A stretch of 64,000 bases of DNA, taken from Chloranthus sessilifolius. Lineage: Eukaryota > Streptophyta > Magnoliopsida > Chloranthales > Chloranthaceae. A program made the position numbers and the translations under genes. Below the pieces are notes generated by a model, which ran no database searches, was not told the origin of the DNA, and worked only from the letters and a program-made list of their open reading frames with translations. The DNA is taken from contig CM037592.1 of NCBI GenBank assembly GCA_021018995.1, forward strand, positions 74,093,301-74,157,300, read 5' to 3'. Positions 9,460 to 60,255 of the stretch are shown one piece after another (position 1 is the first letter of the stretch; every line of letters begins with the position of its first letter).

Positions 9460-9934
9460 ACTTTTTTTTTTGTTGATAGGTAAGCTTGAGGTTGTAGGGT
9501 CCTCACCCATTTTATTAAAAGATAAGTAATATATTACAAAGAATCAAAAGCAAATCAAACTTTAAAAATCTATAGGAAGTTCGACATCGCCATCACCCCT
9601 ATTAATCCTCAAAGTCACCCTAAAGTACCTTCCATGTCGCCCTAATACAGTTATCATCATCAGGAATCTTTAGAGAAACCACCCAAAAGGAGACTTCTCT
9701 AATAACATTATGAAGAATAGTCTTCCTTTGAGTAACATCATCATTAAAGATACGGTCATTTCGCTCTCTCCAAATGAAAGAAATGGCAGTGCAAAAAGTA
9801 TTACGGATCAAATGGTCCTTCCATTTTCTCCCCTTAGACATTTCCATACATCTCTTCAACTCTTCAAGCAACAAAAGTTTATTGTTAGCTCTGATTCCTA
9901 GCCTGGATTTGATTGATCTCCAAATCCATTGAGA
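9460..9934 (-). pseudogene. LINE 3' end (left half, RT zinc-binding tail)
   Basis: On the minus strand the frame reads WIWRSIKSRLGIRA, then the block at 9874-9620 with KGRKWKDHLIRNTFCTAI, FIWRERNDRIFND and ILHNVIREVSFWV, typical of the C-terminal tail of plant LINE reverse transcriptases. The T-run at 9463-9473 is the poly(A) end. The left part of the reading frame is resumed exactly at 40512 on the far side of element C. Confidence 0.88.
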
Positions 9935-9939
9935 ATAAC
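9935..9939. other. Target-site duplication of element C (left)
   Basis: ATAAC here equals ATAAC at 40507-40511. With C and one copy removed, the LINE reading frame is continuous (FFSCGY joins to SQWIWRS). Confidence 0.9.
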
Positions 9940-10202
9940 TATTGGTGCGCGCTTTTTCCGGGTTCCTCTCGGTCCCCGTTGAATCAGTGGCACAATTCTG
10001 TCCAAGTGGGCTCTGGCAATGCGATGTTTGGAATGTTGAAAATAAAGGGGGGATTTTTAGGAAGATTCCTAGTTGGTTGTGATTGCCAACTGCAGATATT
10101 TAACGACGCTGCAACACGTTAGTGATCACGCTTTAGAGCGGGTGTGGGTTACTTCTTTACTGAGTTGTCCGCCTGCGAACGTCAGCAGCACTGAATCTTC
10201 TT

Positions 10203-10995
10203 ATAATTTAAAAAGTTTAGTTTTCCTTTTCTTTCCCTATTATTAATGTAATTATGATTGGTTTAGATTTCCTAATTCTATTATGAGTCTAGTTGTGGTC
10301 TTATTTGGAGTCTAATTAATTTAGTGTCCTAATACTACTAGAAGTCCAATTAATATTAGTCTCCTAATTGTGCTAGGAGTTTAATTAATTTAAATGTTCT
10401 AATTTTACTAGTATTCTAATTAATTTAGTTTCCTAATGTTACTTGAAGTCTAATTAATATCAGTCTCGTAATCATATTTGGAATGCAGGTATGTTAATTC
10501 TAATGGAGTTCTAATTGAATCAGGCATGCTAATTATACTGAAATTCTAAGTAAAGCAAGTATACTAGTTCTTCTGCAACTCTGATTGAAATAGAGAACTA
10601 ATTTTACTAGAACTCTAATTAAAGCAAAGGAATTAGTTTTATTAAAATCTAATTAAAACAAATAAACTAATTTTATTAAAACTCATATTAAAATAAATAA
10701 ACTAATTTTATTAAAATTTTGATTAAAGCAATGAATTAACTATACTAAAAATCTAACTAAAATAAAGGAACTAATTTTATCAAATTTTCTAATCAGGTCG
10801 AGGAATTAACTTTACTAAAAAAAATCTGATTTAAAATAATGAATTAACAATACTAAATTTTAATTGAGAAAAAGGAACTACCTTTTACTAATTCTGATTA
10901 AAGCAATAAATTATATTATACAAAAATTCTAACTGAAGCAATGAATTAATTTTACTAAAATTCTAATTAAAGCAATAAATTAATCCTACTAAAAA
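10203..10995. repeat. AT-rich short-period array in the LTR of C (left copy)
   Basis: Repeats of the type CTAATTTTACTAAAATTCT alternating with AATTAAAGCAATGAATTA, period roughly 30-40 bp. It lies downstream of the TATA box on the minus strand, so it would be transcribed. The same array is at about 37880-38670. Confidence 0.8.
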
Positions 10996-11762
10996 TTTAA
11001 GAAAAAGGGGTTTTGGGCCCGCTATGCTAAGGAGGATTGGCCTCGTTTCCGAGTACCCTCCGTGAGCTCCCTTGGGCAAATCGGGTGGTTGAGATTAAAG
11101 CAAATTGAATTTTTGGATTATAAAATAGTATTTTTAAAATTTTTAGAGTCATTTTCAGGATTATAATGATGAATTAAATTATGAAACTAGAATTTTTGAA
11201 AACTAAATTAATATTTGGGGTTTTAGAAATATTAAGTTGAGGAATTAAAACTAAAATTTAAAAATTTAAGGACTGAATTCAGGTCCGAAATCAGAAAATC
11301 AGACCGTATGATTAAGGGCTGGTTCTAGAAACTAAGAACTTGAACCAGAGATTAATGACAGGACTGGAGATTAAGGTTTTAGAATAAAATTAAAGTCTAT
11401 GGTCGATGAATTAGGCCGTCAGATTAAGGACTGGTTCTAAATTCGAAGAACTAGAACCAGAGATTGGAAATTACGGTCTAAAAAAGGTGCTACGGTCTAA
11501 GATTGAAAATATTTGATGTTAATAATTAAGACTAAGGAATCCTAAATCTAAAGACTAAAAGGCTACGGTTGGAGGCTAAAACTGTATTCTTACCTGAGGT
11601 CGGGGCTGCGGAGAGGAATCTTAAAAATTCGGAGCTTGAATCTCGAAATCATGGCTATGTTTCTCTATGGGTTTGTTCTCGAAATTCTCTCTATTTTCCA
11701 TTCTCTCTCTGCAAAATTTTTAGCCTCTTTCGTCCAACCTCTCGGTCGAATTAAAAAAAGGG

Positions 11763-11770
11763 CTTTTATA
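11763..11770 (-). promoter_or_regulatory. TATA box of the 3' LTR of C
   Basis: TATAAAAG on the minus strand. The same octamer is at 39421-39428 in the 5' LTR. Confidence 0.6.
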
Positions 11771-12227
11771 AGTTTTTTTCTAATAAATGCCCTGTTTCAG
11801 GCATTTAACTGAATTACGTGTCGGTATCCCGGTGCTTAATCACTTTGAGTCGGTCACCGACTCAGTGAGTGACCGGCTGACTTGCTCAGTGAGTTTCCTA
11901 GTTCTAACAACATTAGGACTAATTGCGCGGTTGTTGTGAGGTGCACAATCTGATTAAGTATCTCTTTCGAAGCGCTTAATCGATGAAGCTTGGGGGTCAA
12001 GGATTGTAAAACTAGGTTGGGCTTAGGCCAATTGCGTGTCGGTGGTGGGGCACTTAATTCGATCGCGCGTCTCATGGTGGGCATGTGATCGAGTCTTGAA
12101 GTGGTCTGGGAAAGGAAGTCTGGTCTGAAAGGGGGATTGATTGCATGTTTATGGTTTCGTGTGCAATCAAATTGCGCATGTGATTTTAGTCGCGTAATTC
12201 GGGGTTGCCCAGGTTCGGGTCAGGTAT

Positions 12228-12781
12228 GAAATGCCAGACTATTATTTCAGCCTGCATTTCAACTATATACTATTCTTTTAGTATATAGTCTCCCTACATT
12301 GGGGTCTGACTCACAGAGCTATTATTTCAACCTGTGTCCAGCCATGTACTATTCTTTCAGTACATGGTTCCGTCGTTAGGGTTATGGGGTCTGAAATGCC
12401 AGACTATTATTTCAGTCTACATTTCTACTATATACTATTATTTCAGTATATAGTCTCCCTACATCGGGATCTGAGCCACAGAACTATTGTTTCAGCCTGT
12501 GTTCACCCATGTACTATTATTTCAGTGCAAAGTTCCTAATTTAGGGTTAGGAGTCTGAAATATAAGACTATTGTTTCAGTATGCATTTTGACTATATATT
12601 ATTGTTTTAGTATATAGTCTCCCTATGTTGGGATCTGAGCCACAGAGCTATTGTTTCAGTCTGTGTTCAGCCATGTACTATTATTTCAGTGCATGGTTCC
12701 CATGTTAGGGTCATGGGGCCTGAGCCACGGAGCTATTATTTCAGCCTATGTCCAGCCATATACTATTGTTCTAGTATATGG
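12228..12781. repeat. Constant-loop hairpin array in the 3' LTR of C
   Basis: Fourteen inverted repeats, each with a 10-nt loop of type TATTRTTTCA closed by C and G. There are four stem families in fixed order: A, GAAATGC/GCATTTC (12228, 12393, 12557); B, ACTATATAC/GTATATAGT (12262, 12427, 12591); C, CACAG/CTGTG (12312, 12477, 12641, 12726); D, CCATGTAC/GTACATGG (12342, 12507, 12671, 12756). The ABCD block repeats every 165 bp or so three times and then ends C-D. At 12756 the D stem is CCATATAC/GTATATGG, a paired change. It lies in U3, upstream of the TATA box. Confidence 0.9.
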
Positions 12782-12860
12782 TCCCACATTAGGGTAAACG
12801 GATCAAAGGTTGATTGAATAAATTTGTATATTCTGAGAGGACAAAATGGGTTTGTCTACA

Positions 12861-23154: not shown

Positions 23155-24420
23155 CTAAGGGTTGTATTTTCTAAGGTACATGGCGTTCCAAGGGCTAGGG
23201 AATTCTTCCCCATCTTGGTTCGCCAGTTTGTATGCCTTTCTAGGGTATGCGGTTGTTATAGCATAAGGGCCTTCCCAATTCGGTTTTAGTTTTTCTTTTG
23301 GATGGGCGTGCTTGGAAAGCATGATTTTCTTCAAGACTAATTCTCTGATATTAAAGGTTCGTTCAAGGACTTTCTTATCGTAAGCCCTGGCCACTAACCT
23401 CTGATTTACCTGAGCATGATCAACTGCCCTTAGACGTGTTTCACCGAGCTATTCTAGCTGCATGAGTGGGGTAATTCTCCTCTCATCTAAGGATATCTCA
23501 TCATCGAGTTTAATCTATAAGGATGGTACTTGAATCTAATATAGTAGGACTGCCTCCATCCTGAAGGTAAGGAGGTACGGTGTTTGGCCAGTGGTCGTAC
23601 GAATAGAGGTCCTATAGGCCCAGAGTCCTTCTGGTAGTCGTTTGGGCCAGTCAGCTCCATTTCTTATTTCTACTGTGCATTTCAGAATTCAAATCAGTGT
23701 TTTGTTCATATCTTCTACTTGTCCATTTCCTTTAGAGTAGAATGGTGATGAGTGGCATAGATTGATGCTGAACTTCTTGCATAACTTTTTCATCTTTTCT
23801 GCGATGAACTGTGGTCCATTGTCGGTGATGAATATCCTGAGTACTTCAAACCTGGTGATGATATTTCGAACAATAAACCTTACGAGTGCTGAAGTGGTGA
23901 TTTTGACATAGGATTCAACTTCTGCCCATTTGGTGTAGTATTCGGTTGCTGTAAGTATGAACGCATTCTTGTGAGTGTTCCCAACCGTATTTGTGAAAGG
24001 TATGATGACATCAAAGGCCCACATCAAAAATAGCCATGGCTAGGTTATAGTGGTCAATGCAACTGATGGAGCTTTGATAAGTGCGGTGTGTTCTTGGCAT
24101 TGATTACAGAGTTGGACGTGTAGGTGGCAATCTCTTATCATTGTCGGCCAGAAGTAGCTTTGTCGTGTGATTTGATCGATGAGTCTCTGTCTACTGGAGT
24201 GGGCGCTGCAGGCACTAGCGTGTAGTTCTCGAATGATGTATTGTCCTTCGGTGGTTGTGACGCATTGTAGCAGTACTCCTTTGGTGAAAGCTTCTTTGTA
24301 TAGTATTTTGCCGAGTATGCAGAATCAGGTGCATCGATTCCTTATAGTCTTCCGTTCGATTTTCGTGGCATACCGAGGGACGTGTTGATGCTTCAGGAAG
24401 TTTCAGACGCTGAAATACCA
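23155..24420 (-). pseudogene. Integrase of element C
   Basis: The minus strand reads a degenerate zinc-binding part (about 24420-24050). The core follows from 24027: MMWAFDVIIPF, ATEYYTKWAEVESY, the second Asp in FITDNGPQF and the Glu in GNGQVEDMNK, with the usual D-D-35-E spacing. [16 protein letters not shown] follows near 23600. The C-terminal block at 23394-23155 reads VARAYDKKVLERTFN, NWEGPYAITTAYP and SPWNAMYLRKYNP. All three catalytic residues remain, but the zinc domain and the linker between core and C-terminus carry stops. Confidence 0.9.
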
Positions 24421-26033: not shown

Positions 26034-27781
26034 TGATGTGCAGTGAAATATGATGATATTTCACCCCTAAAGACCTACATTTAGCTATCCGATGAAAGCT
26101 ATTTAACATGTTTTATATAGTTTTAGTGATTTACAAGCCTGGAGATGTGTTGAGCATGAAATAACCCAAAAGTTCAGAATATAACGTCAAATTCATGCTA
26201 CCTAAGATCATTCGGAACTTATCCCAACTTGGAGCTCAATTTGAACCTTCAAGACATTAGATTCAGAAAATTGTCAAAACACAAACGTTTGAGAACTCGT
26301 CGTCAGCTTTCCAACGCCGCAAGAATCGCCTCAATCTGAGTTCGGGATAGAACGTTATGGCTGAAATACCAAGGTAGTGTCTGAATGCAAAGTGTAGCGG
26401 GAATTCACGAAAATCTGGGAGGTTGATTGATTGACCAAATTTGAATTTGAGTTCGGAATTTTGTTTGGCCACGAGAATCTCGGTACTCTTTTCACGAAAT
26501 AAAATCTTGGAGGAAAAAGCGGCTTCTGTTTTGGCAATTATGGAAAAAAGATATTCTTGGAGATATATTCATTCGGGGAGTCCTTGGGAGAGATAATTCT
26601 GATTTTTATTATTTTTCTGCATTCTTCTTTTTAGAGAGTTTTGTTTTTTAGAGAGTTTTCATTTTTCTGTATTCTTCTGTTTTAGTTTCTCTGCGTTTTA
26701 AAGTGTAAGGGCATTGAGTCCCATTTTCTTGAACTATCTTTATTATTCATTTTGAAAAGGAAGATAAGTCTTAGTTTTCTGATTTGGATCTACTTTCAAG
26801 AAGGAGGTGTACATACTTGGATTAAAGCTTTTTGTGGATAATTCTTTACGGTATTTTAATGGCATTTTCAACTTCTGCATTTATTTTATTGCTTATTTCA
26901 GTTATGTGTGGCTAGTTTCATTAAGGATGGGGATCTAATGAACCCCATCCGAGGTATTCATTTATATTAATATAAATCTGTGATTGAGATGTCAGATGCT
27001 TTTTAAGACCCTAATATTCATTGAAAATGGTGAAATCATTATTTCAATCTGAGATCTAGGAGCTAATCATGCCCTATGATTTCAGATCTGCAATAATGAT
27101 TTTATCCTAATTATCACCCATCTCGGGGTGAAGTTTTACCATCATCTGAGGTGTGAGTGTTAATCATACACTCATGGGGTGTTAATCATACATCTCCTTG
27201 ATCTTGGATTGATAGTATGACTTTATCCCAGTGGTGAGTTCCAATCACGATCTGAGGTGTGGGTGTTAATCATACACCCATGGGGTGTTAATCATACATC
27301 TCCATGATCTTAGATCGTACTTTGGAAATTACCTCTGATTGGGTTCTAAATATTGTCCGAGGTGTGAGTGTTAATCATACACTTATGGGATGTTAATCAT
27401 ACATATCCGTGATCTCAGATCTATATTTTAGAACTCACGTGTGTATAGGGCAGTGCTTCTTTTGAGAAATCTGTTAAAGATCTCATATCTCAATCCACAG
27501 ATTGGTATTCTGTAAATGATAAACTTACGATGGGAGGATTTAGCATTCCAATCCTTATCTTTTATTAATTGTTAAATTCCTTTAGTATTTATCTGTTAGA
27601 ATTTATCTCATTTATCAGAACCCTAGATTGTTGGTTCGTGAAAGATCCGTGGAAATTCTTTTAGTTAATTGACATTTCTTTTATATTTTCTAACCAGTCA
27701 TCGTGGGAACAATCTCGTACTCTGCACCCATTGACTACATCACGATTAGTGCACTTGCAGTACAATTTTTAGGACACATCA
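26034..27781 (+). mobile_element. Solo LTR 1 inside the RT of C
   Basis: TGATGTG...CACATCA, 1,748 bp, flanked by TCTTC at 26029-26033 and 27782-27786. The RT frame of C (EK before, TSFTT after) continues across the site once it is removed. There is no coding sequence. Near its 5' end it has a hairpin, GTGAAATA then TATTTCAC followed by CCC, like solo LTR 2. The right end ('gcacttgcagtacaattttt') is a sequence type often seen at the ends of plant noncoding LTR elements. Confidence 0.85.
27154..27412. repeat. Constant-loop TAATCAT hairpins in solo LTR 1
   Basis: Six inverted repeats share loop TAATCAT with different stems: TGAGTGT/ACACTCA (27154), GGTGT/ACATC (27178), TGGGTGT/ACACCCA (27260), GGTGT/ACATC (27284), GAGTGT/ACACTT (about 27366) and GGATGT/ACATAT (about 27389). 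The 27154 and 27260 stems differ at one pair, A-T against G-C. The set recurs at about 29036-29294 and 30956-31214 because of the triplication. Confidence 0.85.
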
Positions 27782-27786
27782 TCTTC

Positions 27787-28809
27787 TCTTAGTCAAACTA
27801 TGTTAATTTGATCTGATTATAGCTAGAGAAACCGTCCATAAAGGATAGCATCACATGTCCAGCGATGTTGTCTACTAGAGTGTCAATGTGTGGAGTGGGA
27901 AGTGATCTTTTGGGCATGCCTCGTTGAGGTTTCGGAAGTCAATGAAAACCCATACTCGCCATTTTCTTAGCTTACGTACCATGTTTGCAACCCATTTGGG
28001 GTAGAGGACGACTCGAATGAACTTGGCTTTGTGCAATTTGTCAACTTCCTCTTTAACTTGAAGGGCAATTTGGGTGCATCCTACTAAGTTTTCGCTTAAT
28101 AGGTTTTGCATCGGGTTCCAAGACAAGACAGTGTTCTACTAAGCTAGGGTCTAAACCAGGCATATCTTTATAGGACCATGCAAAGGAGTCGAGGTGTTCT
28201 TGTAGGACTTGTACGATTTGTTGACGTTCCTTGGAGTTGAGCGTTAGTAGTTTCTTGGGTTTCTCTTCCTAAAGTTGATTTCTTCGTAGGTTCCGTTAAC
28301 TTGGGCTTGTTCGAAATGCTTGATGACTCGTTGGAAGTCCTGCGTCTCTTCAAAGAATCAATGTTTCTTCTTCATCTTGATAGCTCATATTTTGCAAAAG
28401 GTAATCGCTCATCGATAATTTATGGAGAGATCTTTGAAGGTGAAGGTCAAGGCTATTGATCATTTTCTCAAAGTCGCGAAGTATTTCATCTGGTATAATC
28501 ACTAGCTTGTTATTTAGCCTAGATATCTTGCATCCTCGTATGGGAGATGGGATAGTAGTCTTAGGAGAAAAGTCTCCTTGTTGGTCACAAACTTAATTCG
28601 GGATGAAGGGTTCCCTTTCTTTTCTGGTTTCTAATTTTTTTAGATTTTTTATTTATGATTTTTTAATATTTTCTGCTTTTTCTATTTTTTTTATTTTCGA
28701 TAGTAGATATGGTACAAGGTCGGTCACCTCAAAAGGCGCTAGAAGATTTGCTTCCTCTAACTGAGGGAGCGAGACGGCTGTCGGTGCTGTTTGGGCGAAT
28801 TCTTTAGGA
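27787..28809 (-). pseudogene. RT N-terminal half of C, copy 1 (most broken)
   Basis: The minus strand reads ALQVKEEVDKLHKAKFIRV, then YPKWVANMV, FIDFRNLNEACPKDHFPLH and LSFMDGFSSYNQIKL before the solo LTR. Compared with copies 2 and 3 it has about a dozen deletions of 1 to 12 bp, for example near 28080, 28235 and 28285, that shift the frame. This copy is the one contiguous with the 3' half of RT. Confidence 0.85.
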
Positions 28810-29765
28810 ATGGGGATCTAATGAACCCCATCCGAGGTATTCATTTATATTAATATAAATCTGTGATTGAGATGTCAGATGCTTTTTAAGACCCTAATAT
28901 TCATTGAAAATGGTGAAATCATTATTTCAATCTGAGATCTAGGAGCTAATCATGCCCTATGATTTCAGATCTGCAATAATGATTTTATCCTAATTATCAC
29001 CCATCTCGGGGTGAAGTTTTACCATCATCTGAGGTGTGAGTGTTAATCATACACTCATGGGGTGTTAATCATACATCTCCTTGATCTTGGATTGATAGTA
29101 TGACTTTATCCCAGTGGTGAGTTCCAATCACGATCTGAGGTGTGGGTGTTAATCATACACCCATGGGGTGTTAATCATACATCTCCATGATCTTAGATCG
29201 TACTTTGGAAATTACCCTACAGATTGGGTTCTAAATATTGTCCGAGGTGTGAGTGTTAATCATACACTTATGGGATGTTAATCATACATATCCGTGATCT
29301 CAGATCTATATTTTAGAACTCACGTGTGTATAGGGCAGTGCTTCTTTTGAGAAATCTGTTAAAGATCTCATATCTCAATCCACAGATTGGTATTCTGTAA
29401 ATGATAAACTTACGATGGGAGGATTTAGCATTCCAATCCTTATCTTTTATTAATTGTTAAATTCCTTTAGTATTTATCTGTTAGAATTTATCTCATTTAT
29501 CAGAACCCTAGATTGTTGGTTACTGTGAAAGATCTGTGGAAATTCTTTTAGTTAATTGACATTTCTGTTTTTATATTTTCTCACCAATCCTCGTGGGAAC
29601 AATCTCGTACTTTGCACCCATTGACTACATCACGATTCGTGCACTTGCGAGTACAAATTTTAGGACACATCATCTTCTCTTAGTCAAACTATGTTAATTT
29701 GATCTGATTATAGCTAGAGAAACCGTCCATAAAGGATAGCATCTCATGTCCAGCGATGTTGTCTA

Positions 29766-30329
29766 CTAGAGTGTCAATGTGTGGAGTGGGAAGTCATCTT
29801 TTGGGCATGCCTGGTTGAGGTTTTGGAAGTCAATGAAAACCCATACTCTGCCATTTTTCTTAGCGACAGGTACCATGTTTGCAACCCATTTGGGGTAGAG
29901 GACGACTCGAATGAACTTGGCTTTGTGCAATTTGTCAACTTCCTCTTTAACTTGAAGGGCAATTTGCGGGTGCATCCTACGAAGTTTCTGCTTAATAGGT
30001 TTTGCATCGGGTTCCAAGACAAGACAGTGTTCTACTAAGCTAGGGTCTAAACCAGGCATATCTTTATAGGACCATGCAAAGGAGTCGAGGTGTTCTTGTA
30101 GGACTTGTACGATTTGTTGACGTTCCTTGGAGTTGAGCGCTGCGCTAATTAGTAGTTTCTTGGGTTTCTCTTCAGTGCTAAAGTTGATTTCTTCTGTAGG
30201 TTCCGTTGCAACTTGGGCTTGTTCGTCGAAATGCTTGATGACTCGTTGGAAGTCCTGCGTCTCTTCAGCAATCAATGTTTCTTCTTCATCTTGATAGCTC
30301 ATATTTTGCAAAAGGTAATCGCTCATCAA
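29766..30329 (-). pseudogene. RT N-terminal half of C, copy 2
   Basis: An open stretch of 187 codons: an acidic linker (DEEETLIAEETQDFQRVIKH), the pre-RT segment LDSFAWSYKDMPGLDPSLVE, KQKLRRMHPQIALQVKEEV, YPKWVANMVPVAKKNGRVWV and FIDFQNLNQACPKDDFPLH. It is then cut by the solo-LTR segment of the next unit. It is a partial duplicate and has no catalytic YIDD box. Confidence 0.88.
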
Positions 30330-31691
30330 GATAATTTATGGTAAGAGATCTTTGGTAAGGTGAAGGTCAAGGCTATTGATCATTTTCTCAAAGTCGCGAA
30401 GTATTTCATCTGGTATAATCACTAGCTTGTTATTTAGCCTAGATATCTTGCATCCTCGTATGGGAGATGGGATAGTAGTCTTAGGAGAAAAGTCTCCTTG
30501 TTGGTCACAAACTTAATTCGGGATGAAGGGTTCCCTTTCTTTTCTGGTTTCTAATTTTTTTAGATTTTTTATTTATGATTTTTTAATATTTTCTGCTTTT
30601 TCTATTTTTTTTATTTTCGATAGTAGATATGGTACAAGGTCGGTCACCTCAAAAGGCGCTAGAAGATTTGCTTCCTCTAACTGAGGGAGCGAGACGGCTG
30701 TCGGTGCTGTTTGGGCGAATTCTTTAGGAATGGGGATCTAATGAACCCCATCCGAGGTATTCATTTATATTAATATAAATCTGTGATTGAGATGTCAGAT
30801 GCTTTTTAAGACCCTAATATTCATTGAAAATGGTGAAATCATTATTTCAATCTAAGATCTAGGAGCTAATCATGCCCTATGATTTCAGATCTGCAATAAT
30901 GATTTTATCCTAATTATCACCCATCTCGGGGTGAAGTTTTACCATCATCTGAGGTGTGAGTGTTAATCATACACTCATGGGGTGTTAATCATACATCTCC
31001 TTGATCTTGGATTGATAGTATGACTTTATCCCAGTGGTGAGTTCCAATCACGATCTGAGGTGTGGGTGTTAATCATACACCCATGGGGTGTTAATCATAC
31101 ATCTCCATGATCTTAGATCGTACTTTGGAAATTACCCTACAGATTGGGTTCTAAATATTGTCCGAGGTGTGAGTGTTAATCATACACTTATGGGATGTTA
31201 ATCATACATATCCGTGATCTCAGATCTATATTTTAGAACTCACGTGTGTATAGGGCAGTGCTTCTTTTGAGAAATCTGTTAAAGATCTCATATCTCAATC
31301 CACAGATTGGTATTCTGTAAATGATAAACTTACGATGGGAGGATTTAGCATTCCAATCCTTATCTTTTATTAATTGTTAAATTCCTTTAGTATTTATCTG
31401 TTAGAATTTATCTCATTTATCAGAACCCTAGATTGTTGGTTACTGTGAAAGATCTGTGGAAATTCTTTTAGTTAATTGACATTTCTGTTTTTATATTTTC
31501 TCACCAATCCTCGTGGGAACAATCTCGTACTTTGCACCCATTGACTACATCACGATTCGTGCACTTGCGAGTACAAATTTTAGGACACATCATCTTCTCT
31601 TAGTCAAACTATGTTAATTTGATCTGATTATAGCTAGAGAAACCGTCCATAAAGGATAGCATCTCATGTCCAGCGATGTTGTCTACTAGAG

Positions 31692-32341
31692 TGTCAATGT
31701 GGAGTGGGAAGTCATCTTTGGGCATGCCTGGTTGAGGTTTTGGAAGTCAATGAAAACCCATACTCTGCCATTTTTCTTAGCGACAGGTACCATGTTTGCA
31801 ACCCATTTGGGGTAGAGGACGACTCGAATGAACTTGGCTTTGTGCAATTTGTCAACTTCCTCTTTAACTTGAAGGGCAATTTGCGGGTGCATCCTCTGAA
31901 GTTTACCTTAATAGGTTTTGCATCGGGTTCCAAGACAAGACAGTGTTCTACTAAGCTAGGGTCTAAACCAGGCATATCTTTATAGGACCATGCAAAGGAG
32001 TCGAGGTGTTCTTGTAGGACTTGTACGATTTGTTGACGTTCCTTGGAGTTGAGCGCTGCGCTAATTAGTAGTTTCTTGGGTTTCTCTTCAGTGCTAAAGT
32101 TGATTTCTTCTGTAGGTTCCGTTGCAACTTGGGCTTGTTCGTCGAAATGCTTGATGACTCGTTGGAAGTCCTGCGTCTCTTCAGCAATCAATGTTTCTTC
32201 TTCATCTTCGGTAAGCTCATATTTTGCAAAAGGTAATCGTTCATCAGTATAATTTATGACTGAGAGATCTTTGGTAAGGTGAAGGTCAAGGCTATTGATC
32301 ATTTTCTCAAAGTCGCGAAGTATTTCATCTGGTATAATCAC
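31692..32341 (-). pseudogene. RT N-terminal half of C, copy 3
   Basis: Same content as copy 2 with a longer N-terminal linker (MIIPDEILRDFEKMINSL, LPFAKYELTED). It connects upstream, on the minus strand, to the rest of gag-pol at 32650, so it is the copy continuous with protease. A frameshift near 31905 separates VEHCLVLEPDAKPIK from the MHPQIALQVKEEV part. Confidence 0.88.
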
Positions 32342-32649
32342 TAGCTTGTTATTTAGCCTAGATATCTTGCATCCTCGTATGGGAGATGGGATAGTAGTCT
32401 TAGGAGAAAAGTCTCCTTGTTGGTCACAAACTTAATTCGGGATGAAGGGTTCCCTTTCTTTTCTGGTTTCTAATTTTTTTAGATTTTTTATTTATGATTT
32501 TTTAATATTTTCTGCTTTTTCTATTTTTTTTATTTTCGATAGTAGATATGGTACAAGGTCGGTCACCTCAAAAGGCGCTAGAAGATTTGCTTCCTCTAAC
32601 TGAGGGAGCGAGACGGCTGTCGGTGCTGTTTGGGCGAATTCTTTAGGAA

Positions 32650-37508: not shown

Positions 37509-37678
37509 ATATCTAAGAGGGTTCGAAATAATGTGATGGAAATAAAAACAGGAAAATAAAATAAAACTAACTATCTAAGAAAACGTTTGGCAGAAGTGTC
37601 CCACCGTGATGGTTAGTCTGTTGGTGCACGCTTTTTCTGGGTTCCTCTCGATCCCCGTTGCATCAGTGGCCCAATTCG

Positions 37679-37699
37679 GTCCCAGTGGACTCTGGCAAT
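37679..37699 (-). other. PBS-like sequence inside the LTR of C
   Basis: The minus strand reads ATTGCCAGAGTCCACTGGGA, close to the TGGCGACTCCACTGGGGA type of PBS of Tat/Ogre elements (tRNA-Arg type, from memory). It lies about 60-80 bp inside the LTR end. The same place in the 3' LTR is 10000-10020. Confidence 0.4.
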
Positions 37700-39420
37700 G
37701 CGGTGTTTGGAATATTGAAAATAAACGGGGGATTTCTAGAAAGATTTCTAGTTGGTTGAGATCGCCAGTTGCAGATATTTAATGACGCTGCAACACGTCA
37801 GTGATCATGCTTTAGAGCGGGGTGTGGGTTACTTCTTTACTGAATCGTCCACCTGCGAATGTCAGCAACACTGACTCTTCATATAATTTGGATAGTTTAG
37901 TTTTCCTTTTCATTCCCTGTTATTAATGTAATTCTGATTGGCTTAGATTTCCTAATTCTATTATCAGTCTAGTTGTGGTCTAATTTGGAATCTAATTAAT
38001 TTAGTGTCCTAATACTACTAGAAGTTCAATTAATATTAATCTCCTAATTGTGCTAGGAATCTAATTAATTTAAATGTTCTAATTTTACTAGTATTCTAAT
38101 GAATTTAGTTTCCTAGTGTTACTAGAAGTCTAATTAATATCAGTCTCGTAATCATACTAGGAATGTAGGTATGTTAATTCTAATGGAGTTCTAATTGAAT
38201 CAGGCATGCTAATTATACTGAAATTCTAAGTGAAGCAGTATACTAGTTCTACTGCAACTCTGATTGAAATAGAGAACTAAATTTACTAGAACTCTAATAA
38301 AAGCAAAGGAATTAGTTTTATTAAAATCTAATTAAAACAAATAAAATAATTTTATTCTGATTAAAATAAATAAACTAATTTTATTAAAATTCTAATTAAA
38401 GCAATGAAATAACTATACTAAAAATCTAACTAAAATAAAGGAAATAATGTTATCAAATTTTCTAATCAGGTCGAGGAATTAACTTTACTAAAAAATATCT
38501 GATTTAAAATAATGAATTAACTATACTAAATTTTAATTGAGATAAAGGAACTACCTTTTACTAATTCTGATTAAAGCAATAAATTATATTATACTAAAAT
38601 TCTAATTGAAGCAATGAATTAATTTTACTAAAATTCTACTTAAAGCAATAAATTAATCCTACTAAAAATTTAATAAAAAGCAGTTTTGGACCCGCTATGC
38701 AAAGGAAGATTGGCCTCGTTCCCGAGTACCCTCCGTGATCTCCCTTGGGCAAATCGGGTGGCTGAGATTAAAGCAAATTGGAATTTTGGATTATAAAATA
38801 GTATTTTTTGATTTTTTAGATTCGTTTTCGGGATTATAATGATGAATTAAATTATGAAACTAGAATTTTAGAAAACTAAATTAATATTTGGGGTTGTAGA
38901 AATATTAAACTGAGGAATTAAAACTAGAATTTAAAATTTTAAGGACTGAATTCGGGTTTGAAATCAGACAATCAGACCATATGATTAAGGACTCGTTCTA
39001 GAAACTAAGAACTAGAACTAGAGATTAATGATAAGATTGGATATTAAGATTTTAGAATAAAATTAAAGTCTATGGTCAGTGAAATAGGTCGTCAGATTAA
39101 GGACCGATTCTAAATTCGGAGAACTAGAACCCCAGATTGGAAATAACAGTCTAAAAAAGGTGCTAGGGTCTAAGACTGAAAATATTTGATGTTAATAATT
39201 CTAAATCTAAAGACTAAAGGCTGTGGTCGAAAACTAAAACTAAATTCTTACCTGAGGTCAGGGCTGCGAAGAGGAATCTTAAAAATTCGGAGCTTGAACG
39301 TCGAAATCATGGCTATGTTTCTCTATGGGTTTGTTCTCGAAATTCTCTGTATTTTCCGTTCTTTCTCTGCAAAATTTAAACCTCTTTCATCCAACCCCTC
39401 AGTCGAATTAAACAAAAAGG

Positions 39421-39428
39421 CTTTTATA
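39421..39428 (-). promoter_or_regulatory. TATA box of the 5' LTR of C
   Basis: TATAAAAG on the minus strand, about 450 bp downstream of the hairpin array in the direction of transcription. This promoter would drive gag-pol. Confidence 0.6.
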
Positions 39429-39874
39429 GGTTTTTTTCTAATTAAACACCCTGTTTCAGGCATTTAACTGAATAACCCGCCGGTCTCCCTGTGCTTAATT
39501 GCTTTGAGTCGGTCACCGACCTGCTGACTTGCTCAGCGAGTTTCCTAGTTCTAACAACGTTAGGACTAATAGCGTGTTTATTGTGGGGCGCGCAATCCGA
39601 TTAAGCATCTCTTTTAAATCGCTTAATCGAGGAAGCTTTGGGGTCAAGGACTGTAAGACTGGGTTGGGCGTAGGCTAATTGAGCGCCGGTGGTGGGGCGC
39701 TCAATTCGATGGTGCGTCTCATAGTGGGCGCATGATGGAGTCTCGAAGTGGTCTGGGAAAGGAAGTCTAGTCTGAAAGGGGGACTGATTGCACGTTTGTG
39801 GCTTTGCGTGCAATCAAATTGCACGTGTGATTTTAGGCGCGTAATTCAGGGATGTCCACGTCTGGGTCTGGTCT

Positions 39875-40428
39875 AAAATGTCAGTCTATTGTTTCAGCCT
39901 ACATGTCGACTATATACTATTGTTTCGGTATATAGTCTCCCTACATTAGGGTGTGAGCCACAGAGCTATTGTTTCAGCCTGTGTTCAGCCATGTACTATT
40001 GTTACAGTGCATGGTTCTCACGTTAGAGTTTTGGGGACTGAAATGCTAGACCATTGTTGCAGTCTGCATTTCTACTATATACTATTATTTCAGTATATAG
40101 TCTCCCTATGTCAGGATCTGAGCCACAGAGCTATTGTTTCAGCCTGTGTTCAACCATATACTACTATTTTAGTGCATAGTTCCTAATTTAGGGTTAGGGG
40201 TCTGAAATAGAAGACTATTGTTTCAGTCTGCATTCCGACTATATACTATTCTTTTAGTATATAGTCTCTCTATGTTAGGATCTGAGCCACAGAGCTATTG
40301 TTTTAGCCTGTGTTCAGCCATGTACTATTATTTCAGTGCATGGTTTCCATGTTAGGGTCATGGGGCCTGAGCCACAGTTCTATTGTTTTAGCCTGTGTCC
40401 AGTCATATACTATTGTTTCAGTATATGG
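39875..40428. repeat. Constant-loop hairpin array in the 5' LTR of C
   Basis: The same 14 hairpins in the same ABCD-ABCD-ABCD-CD order as 12228-12781. Examples: GACTATATAC/GTATATAGTC at 39908, CACAG/CTGTG at 39959, CCATGTAC/GTGCATGG at 39989 and 40318, and CATATAC/GTATATG at 40404. Stems stay paired despite substitutions between the two LTRs. Confidence 0.9.
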
Positions 40429-40511
40429 TCCCAAATTAGGGTAAAGGGGTCAAAGGTTGACTGAACAGATTTGTATATTCCGAGAGGGCAAAGTGGGGTA
40501 TCTACAATAAC

Positions 40512-41334
40512 CACAACTAAAAAAAAATGCTCAGTGCCCTCCTAATCTGCCCAACATAAAACACACCTAGAAGGGATACTAATGCCCCTTTTGCAAAGAT
40601 TATCCATGGTCATAAGCTTAAAATTTATTACTTGTTGTGCACAGAAAAAGTACTTTAGAATAACACCCGAATTCCAAATGAAGCATTTCCAGTCAACCAC
40701 CATTCCTTTGGTTCTAATAGCATGCCAAGTTGATCGAGGAGAAGACTTCCCATCCCTTGAAGGTTCCCAACTCCATCTATCATGTAGATCCGTATTTGGC
40801 GCAATAATAGTATGAACATCCTTCCAAGCTTCTTCCATGTGAATCGTTGATGGATGTGGCAAATTCCACACTCCATCATGGGCCACATCATTGACCATAG
40901 TGTTCTCATCAAGATTGGAATGAAGCAGAAGTCTTCTACTATAGGTAGGAATAAGAGATTTGCCATTAACCCAAGGATTAAATCAGAAGCTAGTAGTAGC
41001 TCCATTCGCCAAAACTAACTGGTAATTTCTTAAAACAACGTCTCTGGGAGCAAGAATTTCGCTCCACGCCTAAGAAGGATCACTTGGCCAAGAACAATTC
41101 CAAATGCTTTGTCTCCCTACATACTTAGCCCACATAGCTCGAGCCCAAAGAGAATCATTCTGAACAATAGACCAAAAGAGTTTTGCCATACCAGCATGAT
41201 TCAAATCAACAAGAAGGTGAATGCCAAGACCTCCATCCTCTTTCGGTTTACATATTTTATTTCAACTGATAGAATGTGTAGACTGGGACAAAGACGGTCC
41301 TCTCCAAAGAAATCAACAAAAGATATTTTCAATC
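40512..41334 (-). pseudogene. LINE reverse-transcriptase tail (right half)
   Basis: The minus strand reads GGLGIHLLVDLNHAGMAKLF, SLWARAMWAKYVG, then WSWEPSRDGKSSPRSTWHAI, a Trp-rich middle and RGISIPSRCVLCWAD: the zinc-binding domain (zf-RVT) found after RT in plant LINEs. Its continuation lies at 9934-9460, beyond element C. The upstream end is cut at 41335 by element D. The frame has two or three stops and shifts. Confidence 0.9.
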
Positions 41335-43200
41335 TGTAGACACCAAAATTTGGCTCAAGGCCTGATCGAAACACATTTCGAGAGAGGTGCATTTCCTAGC
41401 TTTTGATGGCATGAATGGTACCCTTAGGAACCTTCCCAAACCCTTAGGAACCTTCCCGAACCCTTAGGAATCAACTCTAACCTTCCCAAACCTATTAGAA
41501 CCCATTCTTGGGCCAGTGTCAAACCTCCCGAGCAGTGGTTAGAAAGACGATTGTCAAAGTTTAGACAGACCGTTTTAGGAGCTGAGTTATATACCATTGG
41601 AAAGAGGACTTCTCCAGCTTTCTAATAAGCCAAAAATCACCTCAACCGGAGTTATATCAAAAGTTATGACCATTTAAAAATCAGGCTATTTTGGAGGGAT
41701 TTTTACCTGGCGCAACTAATAGTTGCGCCAAGCCATTTTCCCCCTGAATTAACCTGGCGCAACTAATAGTTGCACCAGGCCTTTTTCCCCCAGAAATGGC
41801 CTGGCGCAACTAATAGTTACACCAGGTGACTCTGCTGGGGATAGCTTGTAGAGCTTCTCCTTGAAATTTGGCCTTTTTATTTTTATTTTACTAACCATTT
41901 TACTATTATTTATTATTTATTTTATTTTATTTTTATTTTACTCACCCCTACTTTTCCATCATTTACATGCCTTAGCTGATCAGCGGGCTTACTTGTGCAT
42001 TGTCTTTATTTTTTCCTTACATTTCCATCATTTTTAGTGCCTTAGCCGATTGGCGGGCCTACTTGAGCATTGTCTTTCAATTTCTCTAATTTTCTGTCAT
42101 TTAAAGTGCCTTAGCCAATTGGCGGACCTACTTGTACAAACATATTCCAACAGTGGACGCCGGCCCGTAGTGGCGGCACGGGGTCATCACCCCCATCTTT
42201 TGAACTAAAGAAAACTTCCATAAAAAAAAATATTTTGAAAAAAAGAAGTTAAAATTGAATCAAGAATGGGGAGCTTAATTAACTTGCTTTTACGGGGTAG
42301 ATTTTAAAAGGGTTGGGTTTAGGCACACATACAATCACCCGGGTCTTAGTATGTTGGCAGCCCTTAGTGGTGATGATCCAGAAAAGTCTCAGCGCACCTA
42401 GTATCTGAGAAGGGTTGGCACCGGAGGTATATCCGGTGGGTTCCTATTCAAAAGCTTAAAACCCTTGGGGAGCGTGCTAGTGAATTATATCGGACTCAAA
42501 CCCTTTAGGTGCGGTGAGGAGAGAACCAATCACAAAAAAAAATAGCTTAGTTTTCGAAAGCCTAACTTCCACAAAACACAAAAAAAAAGACCCACCTTCA
42601 GGCTGTTGTTCCCTGCTGTTTTAGAATCTAGAACATCATTTTTGCCTGGGGCAAGTATTAGTTGTGCCAGTGCAAAAATTAGGAATTTATAACTAGCGCA
42701 ACTATTAGTTGCGCCAACTTTAAATCCTCCACTTTTACCTTGGTGCAACTAATAGTTACGCCAGTGTAAAAAAGAGGCCTTGCTACCTTGGTGGATGTAT
42801 TAGTTGCGCCAAGTTTACCTGGATAGCAGCAGCTCGAAATCTAAGGCTTTCTCACCTCCCGAGTCCCCCGATTAGTGTGCTTAATACCTTTGTTTGGTCC
42901 CCGCCATCTCCGACACCCAATACGCCCCCGCCGGTCAAAAGAAGACAACTTCTTTTCGACTCATTCCTGGGGATCGGGATGTTTGCCTTGATTTCCGTGC
43001 CATCAATAGATTGGAGGTCCTCCTTCGATTCTTTCGAAGTGCGTCGGAATCGTTGCCGCGGGACTTAAATTAGGGTACGAGAACCACCTGAGAAGGGAAT
43101 TCTAAGGCCTCGGAACCTTTGTTTTTAAAAATTTTCTCAATTTTTTTTTATTTAAAAAAAGAGTAAAAATCAAATGAAAACCAAAAAAATATATAGTTTG
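41335..43200 (+). repeat. 5' LTR of element D
   Basis: The first 400 bp or so match the 3' LTR closely (same CTTAGGAACCTTCCC repeats at 41421 and 59965). After about 41840 the two differ: this copy has an AT-rich block, 'gccttagcygatyrgcggg' repeats at 41970, 42042 and 42108, and more palindromes, with no clear TATA. The right end is set by the PBS-like site at 43201. Confidence 0.65.
41708..42811. repeat. Palindromic 23-bp motif cluster in the 5' LTR of D
   Basis: TGGCGCAACTA, a single A, then its reverse complement, is perfect at 41708. Variants are at 41755, 41802, 42647, 42694, 42741 and 42789. Substitutions occur in either arm (for example GGTGC or TACACC). Confidence 0.9.
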
Positions 43201-44831: not shown

Positions 44832-45570
44832 TGTCACGGGGTCACTCATCTAGCCGTGACAACCCGTGCGGCACTCAACGCCTGCTGCGCTAAGTCAGCC
44901 TATTTCTCTCAAATGCGACACGCAATGCGGATTCCCAGATGCTACGAAGGGTGGAAGGCTTGTCCTACTCAAGCTTCACCTCAACCTCTACGTTCGGACT
45001 TCGCCCTGCGAAGCAACGCAGCAGGTTAGAGCCGGCAACGACGACCGTCAAGGCAACATGCAACAACGAGTGATATAGCGATAGGCAGAGACGAGCATAC
45101 ATAAAGCCCCCTTTGGGCTAGAACCCGCACCTCGAAGGTGGTTGGGAACCACCAACGCGATGGCCCTAGTACACGACGTAGCTAGGACGACCACGCCCTA
45201 AGCGTGGCCCGGATGCACGCACATAAGCCCACGAGGCTAGTGCACGTGTAGGGTCGGGGGACCCCAACTCATGTCCCCCTATATATGGTTCAAACATCAA
45301 CAGTGCCCAAATGGCAGGATGACCTCAAACGTATTGGTTTAGCATACCGCAACGCCCTCCCGCATCGCTAGGCCAACTTGAGTCAGTCGCGTCCATGTCG
45401 CGACCGTGTCTTCATCCTCCACCCCCAACATGCTTCGACGCCATCGTGGCTTAGCTCAGTACATACGGTGCCGCCCTCGTGGCCTAGACGCACCAGTCAA
45501 ACTCAACACTTGGAGAGGAAAAGTGGCCCTACGGCTGCCCCGGATGGCCACGCCGTGTGCCCCCGTCACA
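44832..45570 (-). repeat. 3' LTR of the TR-GAG element
   Basis: Near-identical to 46915-47650. Differences include 'gcctgctgcgc' against 'aacgccgc' at about 44880 and 'gatgcacgcac' against 'gatactgccac' at about 45212. Confidence 0.92.
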
Positions 45571-45786: not shown

Positions 45787-46893
45787 TCAACAGTCAATTA
45801 GTCGGAGCGCCCCAACTCTAGCAATGGGCGCCTCATCATCAGCCTTCTTCTTGCCTTTCTCCGCGACCATCGCGTTCAAGGCGGCCTTCTCTGGACAATC
45901 GCGCACCATATGTGGCCCATTACACAGGAAGCACCCCTTCTTGCTCGGCCTTTCGTCTTTCTTCTTTTCAAACCTACCGCCTTTGTCCTGACCAGATCGC
46001 ACATATCCTGTATCATTCTGCTTCTTTCCCTGCTTGTCAGCATTGTCAATGGATGTTTGGACTGTCTTCTCTTTCTCAAAGCGGTGTTCGATTAGCCGCT
46101 CCGCAGCAGCCAAATTCTCATCTAGGGTCTTCAACCCTCTATAAGTCAACTCCCGCTGTGCCCACGGTGCCAGGCCATCTATAAAGTAGAAGATCCGATC
46201 CTTCTCACTCATTTCATCAATGTCCAACATCAGGCTGGTGAAAGTCTTAATGTACTCGTGCAACGGTCCCGTATGCTTCAACGTCGATAATGCCTTTCGT
46301 GATGACCATCCGACGTTGGTAGGTAGGAATTGAGCCCGCAGCTCTTTCTTCAGATCGGCCCAAGAATCGACTGCACCATTCTCCATGCGCACCTCTGACA
46401 CTCGGTGCCTCCACCATAACTTGGCATCACCGACCAAGTATCTCGATGCAATTCTTAGCTTAACTTTAGCATCGAGGTCCCCCAACGTTTCGAGGTACTC
46501 CTCCACGTCCCATATGAAGTTCTCGAGGTCCTTCGCCTCGCGGGAGCCCTTGAACGTCTCTGGCTCGGGGAACTTAAATCGAGGTGTCGGCGTCCCTGCT
46601 GGCACCCCAGCTGGCATTGCCAGGATGAGCTTTTTCAGCACGCTCATCTCGTCACGTACCTCCTCCAACGTGACCTTAATTTCTCGTACCTCTGCTGCCA
46701 ATTGCTCTACGGTCTCAGCCACATCGGCATTTATCCTTTCATGCCTATTCAGTCGTTCACCATGTAGTGTCATTACTGATACCACCGACTCGAACTGATC
46801 CGCTTGAGCTTCCAAGCTATCTAATCGTTCCCTTGTTGATCGTTCTCTTGTCCGTCGTCTTGCATCCTCGCTGGTCCCTTCCATCTCAGCCAT
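45787..46893 (-). CDS. gag protein of the TR-GAG element (intact, 368 aa)
   Basis: The start chosen is the ATG at 46893 (MAEMEGTSED), just after the PBS. The frame is also open upstream to 46920, but that Met lies in LTR/PBS sequence. Order: a charged coiled-coil-like N-terminus (about 10-95: RTRERSTRERLDSLEAQADQ, AETVEQLAAEVREIKVTLEE), the retrotransposon gag core from about residue 115 (FKFPEPETFKGSREAKDLEN, YLVGDAKLWWRHR, WADLKKELRAQFLP), then a Lys-rich tail with one zinc knuckle, CFLCNGPHMVRDC (CX2CX4HX4C, about residue 328). Gag forms the particle and packages RNA. The missing enzymes must come from an autonomous partner. It is the only long undamaged frame in the window. Confidence 0.93.
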   Translation of the reverse strand: MAEMEGTSEDARRRTRERSTRERLDSLEAQADQFESVVSVMTLHGERLNRHERINADVAETVEQLAAEVREIKVTLEEVRDEMSVLKKLILAMPAGVPAGTPTPRFKFPEPETFKGSREAKDLENFIWDVEEYLETLGDLDAKVKLRIASRYLVGDAKLWWRHRVSEVRMENGAVDSWADLKKELRAQFLPTNVGWSSRKALSTLKHTGPLHEYIKTFTSLMLDIDEMSEKDRIFYFIDGLAPWAQRELTYRGLKTLDENLAAAERLIEHRFEKEKTVQTSIDNADKQGKKQNDTGYVRSGQDKGGRFEKKKDERPSKKGCFLCNGPHMVRDCPEKAALNAMVAEKGKKKADDEAPIARVGALRLIDC

Positions 46894-46898
46894 CACTG

Positions 46899-46912
46899 TG
46901 GCTCTGATACCA
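46899..46912 (-). other. Primer-binding site of the TR-GAG element (initiator tRNA-Met)
   Basis: The minus strand TGGTATCAGAGCCA is a perfect match to the first 14 bases of the initiator-Met PBS, 2 bp after the 5' LTR. Confidence 0.92.
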
Positions 46913-46914
46913 AA

Positions 46915-47650
46915 TGTCACGGGGTCACTCTTCTAGCAGTGACAACCCGTGCGGCACTCAACAACGCCGCTAAGTCAGCCTATTTCTCTCAAATGCGACA
47001 CGCGATGCGGATTCCCAGATGCTACGAAGGGTGGAAGGCTTGTCCTACTCAAGCTTCACCTCAACCTCTACGTTCGGACTTCGCCCTGCGAAGCAACGCA
47101 GCAGGTTAGAGCCGGCAACGACGACCGTCAAGGCAACATGCAACAACGAGTGATATAGCGATAGGCAGCGACGAGCATACATAAAGCCCCCTTTGGGCTA
47201 GAACCCGCACCTCGAAGGTGGTTGGGAACCACCAACGCGATGGCCCTAGTACACGACGTAGCTAGGACGACCACGCCCTAAGCGTGGCCCGGATACTGCC
47301 ACATAAGCCCACGAGGCTAGTGCACGTGTAGGGTCGGGGGACCCCAACTCATGTCCCCCTATATATGGTTCAAACATCAACAGTGCCCAAATGGCAGGAT
47401 GACCTCAAACGTATTGGTTTAGCATACCGCAACGCCCTCCCGCATCGCTAGGCCAACGTGAGTCAGTCGCGTCCATGTCGCGACCATGTCTTCACCCTCC
47501 ACCCCCAACATGCTTCGACGCCATCGTGGCTTAGCTCAGTACATACGGTGCCGCCCTCGTGGCCTAGACGCACCAGTCAAACTCAACACTTGGAGAGGAA
47601 AAGTGGCCCTACGGCTGCCCCGGATGGCCACGCCGTGTGCCCCCGTCACA
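46915..47650 (-). repeat. 5' LTR of the TR-GAG element
   Basis: On the minus strand it runs from 47650 to 46915. A TATA-like CCATATATAG lies at 47368-47359 (same at about 45279 in the other LTR). Confidence 0.92.
47359..47368 (-). promoter_or_regulatory. TATA box of the TR-GAG 5' LTR
   Basis: CCATATATAG on the minus strand, about 450 bp before the PBS. Confidence 0.5.
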
Positions 47651-55619: not shown

Positions 55620-56945
55620 AGGTGAAGCCGATCATGATCGAGCAAAGGAATGAGCCAACCTTCTGCCTCCAGATTGAGAAACCTACAAAGTTTGATGATG
55701 AGCCACCTTGGTTCTCAGATATCAAGAATTTCCTTGAGAACTTTCCCTGAGGGTACATCCAAGACAGACCGACGAACCATCCAACGTCTAGCAGTAGGCT
55801 ACGTTGTTTGTGGGGAATGCCTTTACAAGCAATCCTACAACAATATTCTACTCAGATGCCTTACTGAAAGTGAAGCGACCAACATCATGAAGGAGATCCA
55901 CGAAGGAGTATGCAGAGCCAATGTTAGCGGTCACATGCTTGCTAAGAAAATTCTGCGACAGGAATACTTTTGGACCACTATGGAATCAAATTGCTGCAAA
56001 CATATTCAGAAATGGTACAAGTGTCAAGAACACTCCAGTCTGATACACGCTCCTGCCATCGATCTTTGCTGTATGACCACTCCCTGGCCATTTACTACTT
56101 AGGGCCTTGACGTCGTCGGAATGATTAGCCCAAAAGCATCAAATGGGCATCGGTTCATCCTCGTAGCCATTGAATACTTTACCAAGTGGGTAGAAGCAGC
56201 ATCATACGCCAACATAACGGCCAGTCATGTTGAGAAATTCCTCAAGAATAAAATTTTGTGCCGATTTGGAGTACCCAAGGATATCATCACGGACAATGGT
56301 ACAAATTTTACAAATAAGCGTATCCGAGCCTTCTGTGAGCAATACAAGATCAAGCACCATCGCTTGTCCCCTTATCGGCCTCAAACTAATGGACTTGGAA
56401 GCTGCTAACAAGACGGTCATCCGCATCGTAGAGAAAATGGTTGCCACCTACTGAGATTGGAGAAAAATGCTGCCATTTGCTTTGTGGGCTTACAGAACAT
56501 CGATCTGTATCGCTACAGGGGCAACACCATTCTCCCTTGTATACGGAACTGAGGCCGTCCTACCGGTTGAGGTTGAAGTACCCTCGCTTCAAATCCTTAT
56601 GGAATCAGGCTTACCCGAGACAGAGAGAGAGATCCCGCTTTGAACAATTGAATCTATTGGATGAGAAGAGACTCCTAGCCTTATGTCACACTTCGGTGTA
56701 CCAGGAGCGAATCGCACGTGCTTACAATAAACTTGTCTGCGGTCGAGATCTAAAGGTAAGAAATACTGTGTTGAAGAAGATCTTCCCATCCCCCCACGCC
56801 AATCCAAGAGGAAAGTTCAAGCCAAACTGGGAAGGACCTTACGTCGTTTGAGAGGTGCTATCGGGATACGCCATCTGCCTCACCACCATGGACGGAGATC
56901 ATCTTCTTGAGCCCATCAACGCTGGATATGTCTGACGGTTCTACT
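55620..56945 (+). pseudogene. Integrase of element D
   Basis: The zinc-binding part reads EIHEGVCRANVSGHMLAKKI and CCKHIQKWYKCQEH (H-H-C-C present). The core reads GLDVVGMIS, FTKWVEAASYANITA, IITDNGTNF and SPYRPQTNG. A frameshift near 56395 puts the catalytic Glu (LEAANKTVIRIVEKM) in another frame. The C-terminus (56470-56850) reads [41 protein letters not shown] and KPNWEGPYVV. A TAG at 56100 falls where the family has Trp. Confidence 0.92.
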
Positions 56946-59866: not shown

Positions 59867-59879
59867 AAAGAGGGGCATC
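59867..59879 (+). other. Polypurine tract of element D
   Basis: AAAGAGGGGCATC directly before TGTAGACACC. It corresponds to the tract of element C at 12861-12873. Confidence 0.88.
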
Positions 59880-60255
59880 TGTAGACACCCAAATTTTGCC
59901 CAAGGCCTGATCGAAATATATTTCGAGAGAGGCACATTTCTGAGCTTTTGTTGGCATGTATGGTACCTTTAGGAACCTTCCCAAACCCTTAGGAACCTTC
60001 CCGAACCCTCAGGAATCAACCCTAACCTCCCCAAACCTATTAGAACCCATTCCTGGGCCAGTGTCAAACCCTCCCAAGCAGTGGTTAGAAAGAGGAGTGC
60101 TAAAATTTACACAGACCTTTTTAGGAGCTGAGTTATACACCATTGGAAAGAGGACTTTTCCAGCTTTCTAACAAGCTAAAAATCATCTCAATCAGAGTTT
60201 TATATCAAAATTTATGATCATTTGAAAATCAGGCAATTTTGGAGGGATTTTTGCC

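Follow-up and report, generated by a model that had tools for sequence, protein, structure and literature searches.

The retrotransposon and its surroundings

The window, which is the whole stretch of 64,000 nucleotides analyzed here, contained a retrotransposon of 30.6 kb on the minus strand at 9940–40506. Its 3' LTR (9940–12860) and 5' LTR (37619–40506), both on the minus strand, were recognized by their pairing with each other, by their ends and by the TSD ATAAC, which was read from the sequence at 9935–9939 on the low-coordinate side and at 40507–40511 on the high-coordinate side. The LTR began with TGTAGA, the 3' LTR ended, in the element's sense, with TA, not CA, and the two LTRs differed at 275 of 2885 aligned sites. 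In the interior, Pfam identified rve (23689–24039) and Integrase_H2C2 (24040–24324) on the minus strand, and the integrase was separated from the 3' LTR by about 10 kb. The two LTRs, the TSD ATAAC on both sides and the integrase domain inside indicated that the element is an LTR retrotransposon. Three of ten scanned pieces matched Pfam, all of them integrase-related and one below the cut-off, and eight pieces from the antisense and other frames of the interior had no Pfam match. RT-like pieces at 29766–32431 were recognized by eye only, and by these pieces and its size the element looks gypsy-like. The Tat lineage of Ty3/gypsy is described as having the order RT-RH-INT with an additional RNase H (aRH) (PMC6317226). 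For the open reading frame beside the 5' LTR, 67 candidates yielded no homologue at E ≤ 0.001. A TATA box (TATAAA in CTTATAAAAG) was predicted from the sequence at 11765–11770 on the minus strand, at LTR position 1091, and its equivalent in the 5' LTR lay at 39428.

Several other repeats were observed in the window. The element interior at 26898–32575 consisted partly of three tandem copies of about 1.9 kb each, near identical in parts. Downstream of the TATA box, the same LTRs carried AT-rich tandem repeats with a period of 34–35 bp (10307–10994 and 37987–38678), and the bins at 10340–10939 showed the slowest divergence between the two LTRs, 3.5–5.2% vs 9.5% overall. A second pair of long direct repeats (50–1300 and 56396–57667), 79–86% identical and about 56.35 kb apart, enclosed the whole element; these are possibly the LTRs of an older element that was the host of this insertion. 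A minus-strand open frame at 9620–10099 crossed the LTR boundary into flanking sequence that resembled, by eye, the end of a LINE-type protein. Outside the element, a repeat pair at 41332–41525 and 59877–60070 (92% identical, 18.5 kb apart) contained the 20-bp tandem ACCCTTAGGAACCTTCCCAA, and direct repeats at 44888–45187 and 46968–47267 (99% identical, 2080 bp apart) flanked a minus-strand frame at 45787–46932 that was gag-like by eye.

Layout of the hairpin array

The hairpin array occupied 12228–12781, corresponding to LTR position 80–633. As the original prediction had described, it consisted of 14 units in the order ABCD three times followed by CD, with a period of about 165 bp. The same 14 units were found in the 5' LTR at 39875–40428, where an overlapping match with three mismatches at 39873 was excluded from the unit count. 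The predicted core, C-TATTRTTTCA-G, had at most two mismatches across the 28 units of both LTRs. The first block comprised A1 (12228–12260, with its loop at 12240–12249), B1 (12262–12289), C1 (12312–12336), and D1 (12342–12367, stem CCATGTAC/GTACATGG); the second A2 (12393–12425), B2 (12427–12454), C2 (12477–12501), and D2 (12507–12532, stem CCATGTAC/GTGCAAAG, which is broken in this copy); and the third A3 (12557–12589), B3 (12591–12618), C3 (12641–12665), and D3 (12671–12696). The last C, C4, lay at 12726–12750 and the last D, D4, at 12756–12781 with the stem CCATATAC/GTATATGG. The D stems at 12342 (D1) and 12756 (D4) thus read as they had been quoted.

Because the predicted TATA box was located at LTR position 1091 and the array at 80–633, the array lies in U3, as had been claimed: in this minus-strand element, whose LTR starts with TGTAGA, the array edge was about 455 bp upstream of the TATA box at 11770. 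TRF detected tandem periods of 85 (6.8 copies) and 164 bp in the array. The 85-bp period indicated that AB and CD are related half-repeats, with A and C, and likewise B and D, as paralogues; therefore, the description of four unrelated stem families had to be abandoned. The left arm of the A units resembled the inverted loop. Beside the hairpins, two extra kinds of spacer palindromes with an ACGT core were present. Palindrome F, located between B and C from folding and sequence (12290–12304), was of the CCC-TACGT-YGGG type with its CpG decayed here, and palindrome E, between D and A (12370–12389), was of the CCCACGTTAGGG...GGG type. Across the arrays collected from the genome (see below), the core of F contained CG in 53 of 125 cases and TG or CA in 46, and the core of E (CA-CG-TTA type) contained CG in 37 of 129, CA or TG in 45, and AT in 17.

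The inverted-repeat content of the array was beyond chance. When inverted repeats with a stem of 8 and at most one mismatch were counted, the array tile had 8 non-overlapping repeats, where 300 dinucleotide shuffles averaged 1.7 and gave at most 6, and the array tile of the right LTR had 7 vs an average of 1.4 and at most 5; the tandem copies in these counts are not independent of each other. A count of 7 was also reached by two 554-base tiles, at 38227 and 38781, which lie in AT-rich repeats in the right LTR. RNA folding of the array gave a z of −9.5 on the sense strand and −8.7 on the antisense strand, and Rfam covariance models had no match in 9940–12860 at E up to 1.

Recurrence and variation of the array in the genome

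The assembly of 2.17 Gb, likely from a plant judging by its size and the type of element, was searched with the array as the query. Of 7130 first-look candidates, 40 were scored, and they gave 48 matches in 40 separate places, a number that is a lower bound and not a measure of prevalence because of the scored fraction and because the array itself was the query. The set of 40 arrays used below, 38 fetched and the two of the window, was chosen by similarity to the array, a choice that makes them look less divergent. The exact order of three ABCD blocks and CD was found in 24 of the 40 arrays, and six had one further CD at the end. Those of L018, L026, and L028 were longer, so that nine arrays in all carried extra CD or ABCD blocks. 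Four (L010, L014, L030, and L040) were without one unit, with indels seen in L010, L014, and L040 and a short spacing in L030, and three (L033, L035, and L038) were short or wrongly assigned at their end. Two near-full-length LTRs were met in 200 kb of sequence taken by position, and both carried the array; the regions had been chosen at 16–26 kb from array-bearing copies, and the two LTRs may be partners. The other LTR pieces there were fragments or ran off the region (L049, L050, L051, and L053).

A pattern search detected 84 exact-loop pairs with a purine as the second arm base, and the reversed control pattern gave none. From these 84 pairs, a sample biased by the exact-loop requirement, four odd-stem matches (L067–L070) were taken. 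L067 had six units and L068 had ten, in which C-like and D-like units alternated with changed stems, and L069 and L070 had two units each (one match with three mismatches in L070 was excluded). The loop was exact in 8 of the 12 units of L067 and L068 for which the search pattern did not require it. When the six best listed matches of each locus were considered, similarity of these four loci to the window LTR was confined to the array and its immediate neighborhood; the exception was a match of 45 bases between L069 and sequence near the LTR end. These loci indicated that the same loop occurs on variant stems in related arrays, and that small arrays exist. The array is a real feature of this family that recurs in the genome, and a variant of the palindromic LTR arrays already known.

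The loop had been described as nearly constant while the stems vary, and this held: loops were the most conserved part of the units. Comparisons within elements used five LTR pairs, one proven by its TSD and four putative (same strand, 18–39 kb apart, mutually similar); in L012/L026 and L017/L027, the top-scoring match of one member was another copy. Loop sites differed by 10.3% within LTR pairs and 9.8% between elements, stem sites by 10.5 and 13.8%, and flank sites by 13.7 and 19.1%, respectively, where the between-element figures are from 200 sampled pairs of 662 with L018, L026, and L028 left out. Given that similarity to the array decided which copies were taken, the contrast between loop and stem is the only safe one. 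At A/T sites of the ten paired LTRs, 25 of 575 loop sites differed within pairs and 214 of 4600 between them, compared with 23 of 610 and 274 of 4880 for stems and 6 of 110 and 56 of 880 for other sites; over 698 pairs, the divergence of A/T sites was 3.9% in loops and 7.1% in stems. The similar divergence of A/T loop sites within and between pairs suggested that loops were almost unchanged before insertion. Much of the loop variation was found at two cytosines, and at loop site 5, the central sense-strand C (CAA), T was observed in 20 to 55% of units at each of the 14 slots. All examined arrays had their loops in a single orientation, and no inverted loop at a unit position came up when up to two mismatches were allowed, in a search that found 585 forward loops. 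Twenty-six matches to the inverted motif were considered as loop inversions and rejected, since all of them lay 13 bases before A units, in their left arms.

The dyads were near perfect at the modal level: slot by slot, 115 of the 120 pairs in the modal stems were Watson-Crick. The original prediction had also held that base changes leave the stems paired. As a rule across units this was not confirmed, since D2 of this very LTR was broken and the 40 arrays showed no clear overall excess of paired changes. Counted slot by slot, 692 stem cells had changed on a single arm and 59 on both arms, where 50.4 both-arm cells were expected for independent arms. By family, observed and expected both-arm cells were 28 and 26.9 for A, 2 and 1.6 for B, 5 and 9.3 for C, and 24 and 12.6 for D. 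D alone showed a surplus; 20 of its 24 cells were Watson-Crick, and part of the surplus came from last-D type units that occupied other slots. The overall count spoke mostly against structural selection. Naive counting suggested a strong covariation at D pair 3 (87 GC and 47 AT of 167), and this was rejected because the exchange split largely by slot: the last D had A-T in 35 of 40 arrays, and G-C was found in 27 of 40 for D1, 24 of 40 for D2, and 29 of 35 for D3. The pair-3 exchange is therefore one old difference inherited many times, for which reason slot-wise counts were used, and the paired change noted earlier between D1–3 and the last D is that single old difference.

Among the pairs on which both LTRs of the five LTR pairs agreed, 22 of 483 differed from the slot mode; all 22 of these pre-insertion variants were changes of one arm, and none was compensatory. 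Between partner LTRs, 117 cells differed, nine of them on both arms and three of these nine Watson-Crick in both LTRs. The covariation test was of low power because most of the variation among old copies is post-insertion decay. Single-arm cells read on the plus strand were T-G in 249 cases and A-C (G-U on the sense strand) in 259, so that neither strand was favored.

Interpretation of the array

We tentatively favor the reading, to which we give slightly less than an even chance, that the U3 array is a tandemly amplified enhancer in which host factors read the core and the ACGT palindromes and drive transcription from the TATA box. The array would have been built by tandem amplification within U3 of this retrotransposon family. 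DNA-binding proteins of the host would recognize the constant core CTATTRTTTCAG, which is CTGAAAYAATAG in the element's sense, as well as the ACGT palindromes between the hairpins, and their binding would promote transcription at the predicted TATA box, which lies 455 bp downstream. The dyads may provide a second contact for a dimeric factor, or may be a by-product of arm homogenization in active copies. After insertion, copies drift, their stems decaying on single arms and the loop cytosine being a mutation hot spot. We infer the protein binding, the raised transcription and the role of the dyads from the place of the array, the way its repeats are built up, the ACGT cores, and the single orientation and conservation of the loop, which together fit a cis-regulatory array. 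ACGT cores are typical sites of plant factors; the loop core CTATTRTTTCAG was linked to no known factor. A dimer site normally keeps its half-sites while its spacer is free to vary. A plain palindromic or dimer site therefore fits poorly here, because the loop, which would be the spacer, is kept while the arms vary.

Repeat arrays, sometimes palindromic, are reported as a frequent feature of cis-regulatory regions in transposable elements (PMC10760457). Among the closest systems are the RM boxes of Sireviruses, multi-copy palindromes of at least eight copies per element that mostly form a cluster in the LTR's upper half, upstream of a TATA box, and have been likened to cis-acting activators (PMC2829016). 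The present array resembles them in its 14 palindromic copies at LTR position 80–633, upstream of the TATA box at 1091. The RM boxes of one element are described as sharing one consensus stem with short intervening bases and, in all but one element, a CGG-CCG core (PMC2829016), whereas here a single 10-nt loop is common to several stems and, by column counts, the A–D units have no CGG-CCG core; CCC...GGG with ACGT is found in the spacers instead. The LTR palindromes of maize Sireviruses are likewise regulatory-region palindromes with strong predicted secondary structure, and are hot spots of small RNAs; these are copia elements, and a constant-loop rule is not mentioned in the excerpts consulted (PMC10760457, PMC5311732).

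Tnt1 is another copia element. Like the present array, its BII boxes are repeated boxes in the U3/LTR promoter region, and they are said to bind defense-induced host factors (PMC3316501). Titles and abstract openings of the open-licence literature searched named no constant-loop hairpin array in a gypsy LTR, and the rule of a constant loop with changing stems is unusual. Palindromic LTR arrays were reported as a Sirevirus (copia) feature, and a giant gypsy-like case would extend the layout beyond that genus. Where a single palindrome repeats, selection on the motif and selection on the fold are confounded; this array separates the two because its loop is constant and its stems differ. Its datable genome-wide copies make DNA binding, RNA structure, and template switching directly testable against each other for LTR hairpins.

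It is unlikely, although credible, that the symmetry is a mutational by-product, in which template switching homogenized short inverted repeats and tandem amplification followed with no structural selection. Template switching is known to make perfect stems with multi-base compensatory changes (PMC8794818) and to homogenize the arms of short inverted repeats (PMC8604942), and the array resembles such hairpins in its perfect stems and paired changes (PMC8794818). It also grew by tandem duplication, judging from the periods of 85 and 164 and the extra CD and ABCD blocks, and L069 and L070 have just a single pair of units. However, template switching also inverts spacers (PMC8604942), yet no unit loop was found inverted, and arms in the genomic copies showed little homogenization (59 both-arm cells vs 50.4 expected), so that the process would have acted during reverse transcription or in active copies only. 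Template switching is a mutation process, whereas the array is a feature of the element with loop constancy, which template switching alone leaves unexplained.

We also regard as unlikely that the units fold as RNA hairpins in the 3' part of the element RNA, where Gag or a host RNA-binding protein would read the constant loop, whichever good stem carries it. Loop recognition would be expected to give a constant loop on changing stems, and the sense-strand fold and the Watson-Crick modal stems agree with it. The B, last-D, and D1–3 stems are set apart by a double change at each of pairs 3 and 6 and by two changes of one arm, which on the plus strand are T-G at pair 2 of D1–3 and G-T at pair 8 of most D units, with no other break, and one D-type stem of L068, CCATACAC/GTGTATGG, adds a further double change. 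However, other D-type stems in L067 and L068 contain at least one mismatched pair, mismatches show no strand bias, and in the modal stems four slot pairs are A-C on the sense strand and a single one is G-U. The antisense strand folds about equally well, Rfam gave no match in the LTR, and paired changes were in no clear overall excess, with none of the pre-insertion variants compensatory. A related reading, in which the array displays a fixed 10-nt loop on interchangeable stems, folded in active copies as RNA or extruded DNA through a loop-recognizing protein, is in our view rather unlikely.

Least probable is that the array is a target of host silencing, with hairpins of LTR transcripts feeding small RNAs and the array persisting only through another function: in Sireviruses, LTR regions rich in palindromes are hot spots of small RNAs (PMC5311732, PMC10760457) and the decay has the spectrum of methylated DNA, but the loop hot spot may reflect sequence context. 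Outside the loops, 148 of 480 CpG cells and 51 of 872 CWA cells had decayed. The sense-strand loop C (CAA) had decayed in 151 of 432 cells at the 11 slots where C was commonest, and decay at loop site 5 was about as frequent as at CpG sites. In the five LTR pairs, site 5 was discordant (A/G) in 26 of 72 units, which indicated that the change at the loop cytosine is largely post-insertion. In the flanks, whose alignment is gappy, CAA sites had decayed in 116 of 803 cells on average, and 3 of 21 sites exceeded 35%. As these three sites decay as much as the loop cytosine, its hot spot was rejected as proof of DNA hairpins and may be due to sequence context and not structure; one of the three lies in an AACAA context, like the loop.
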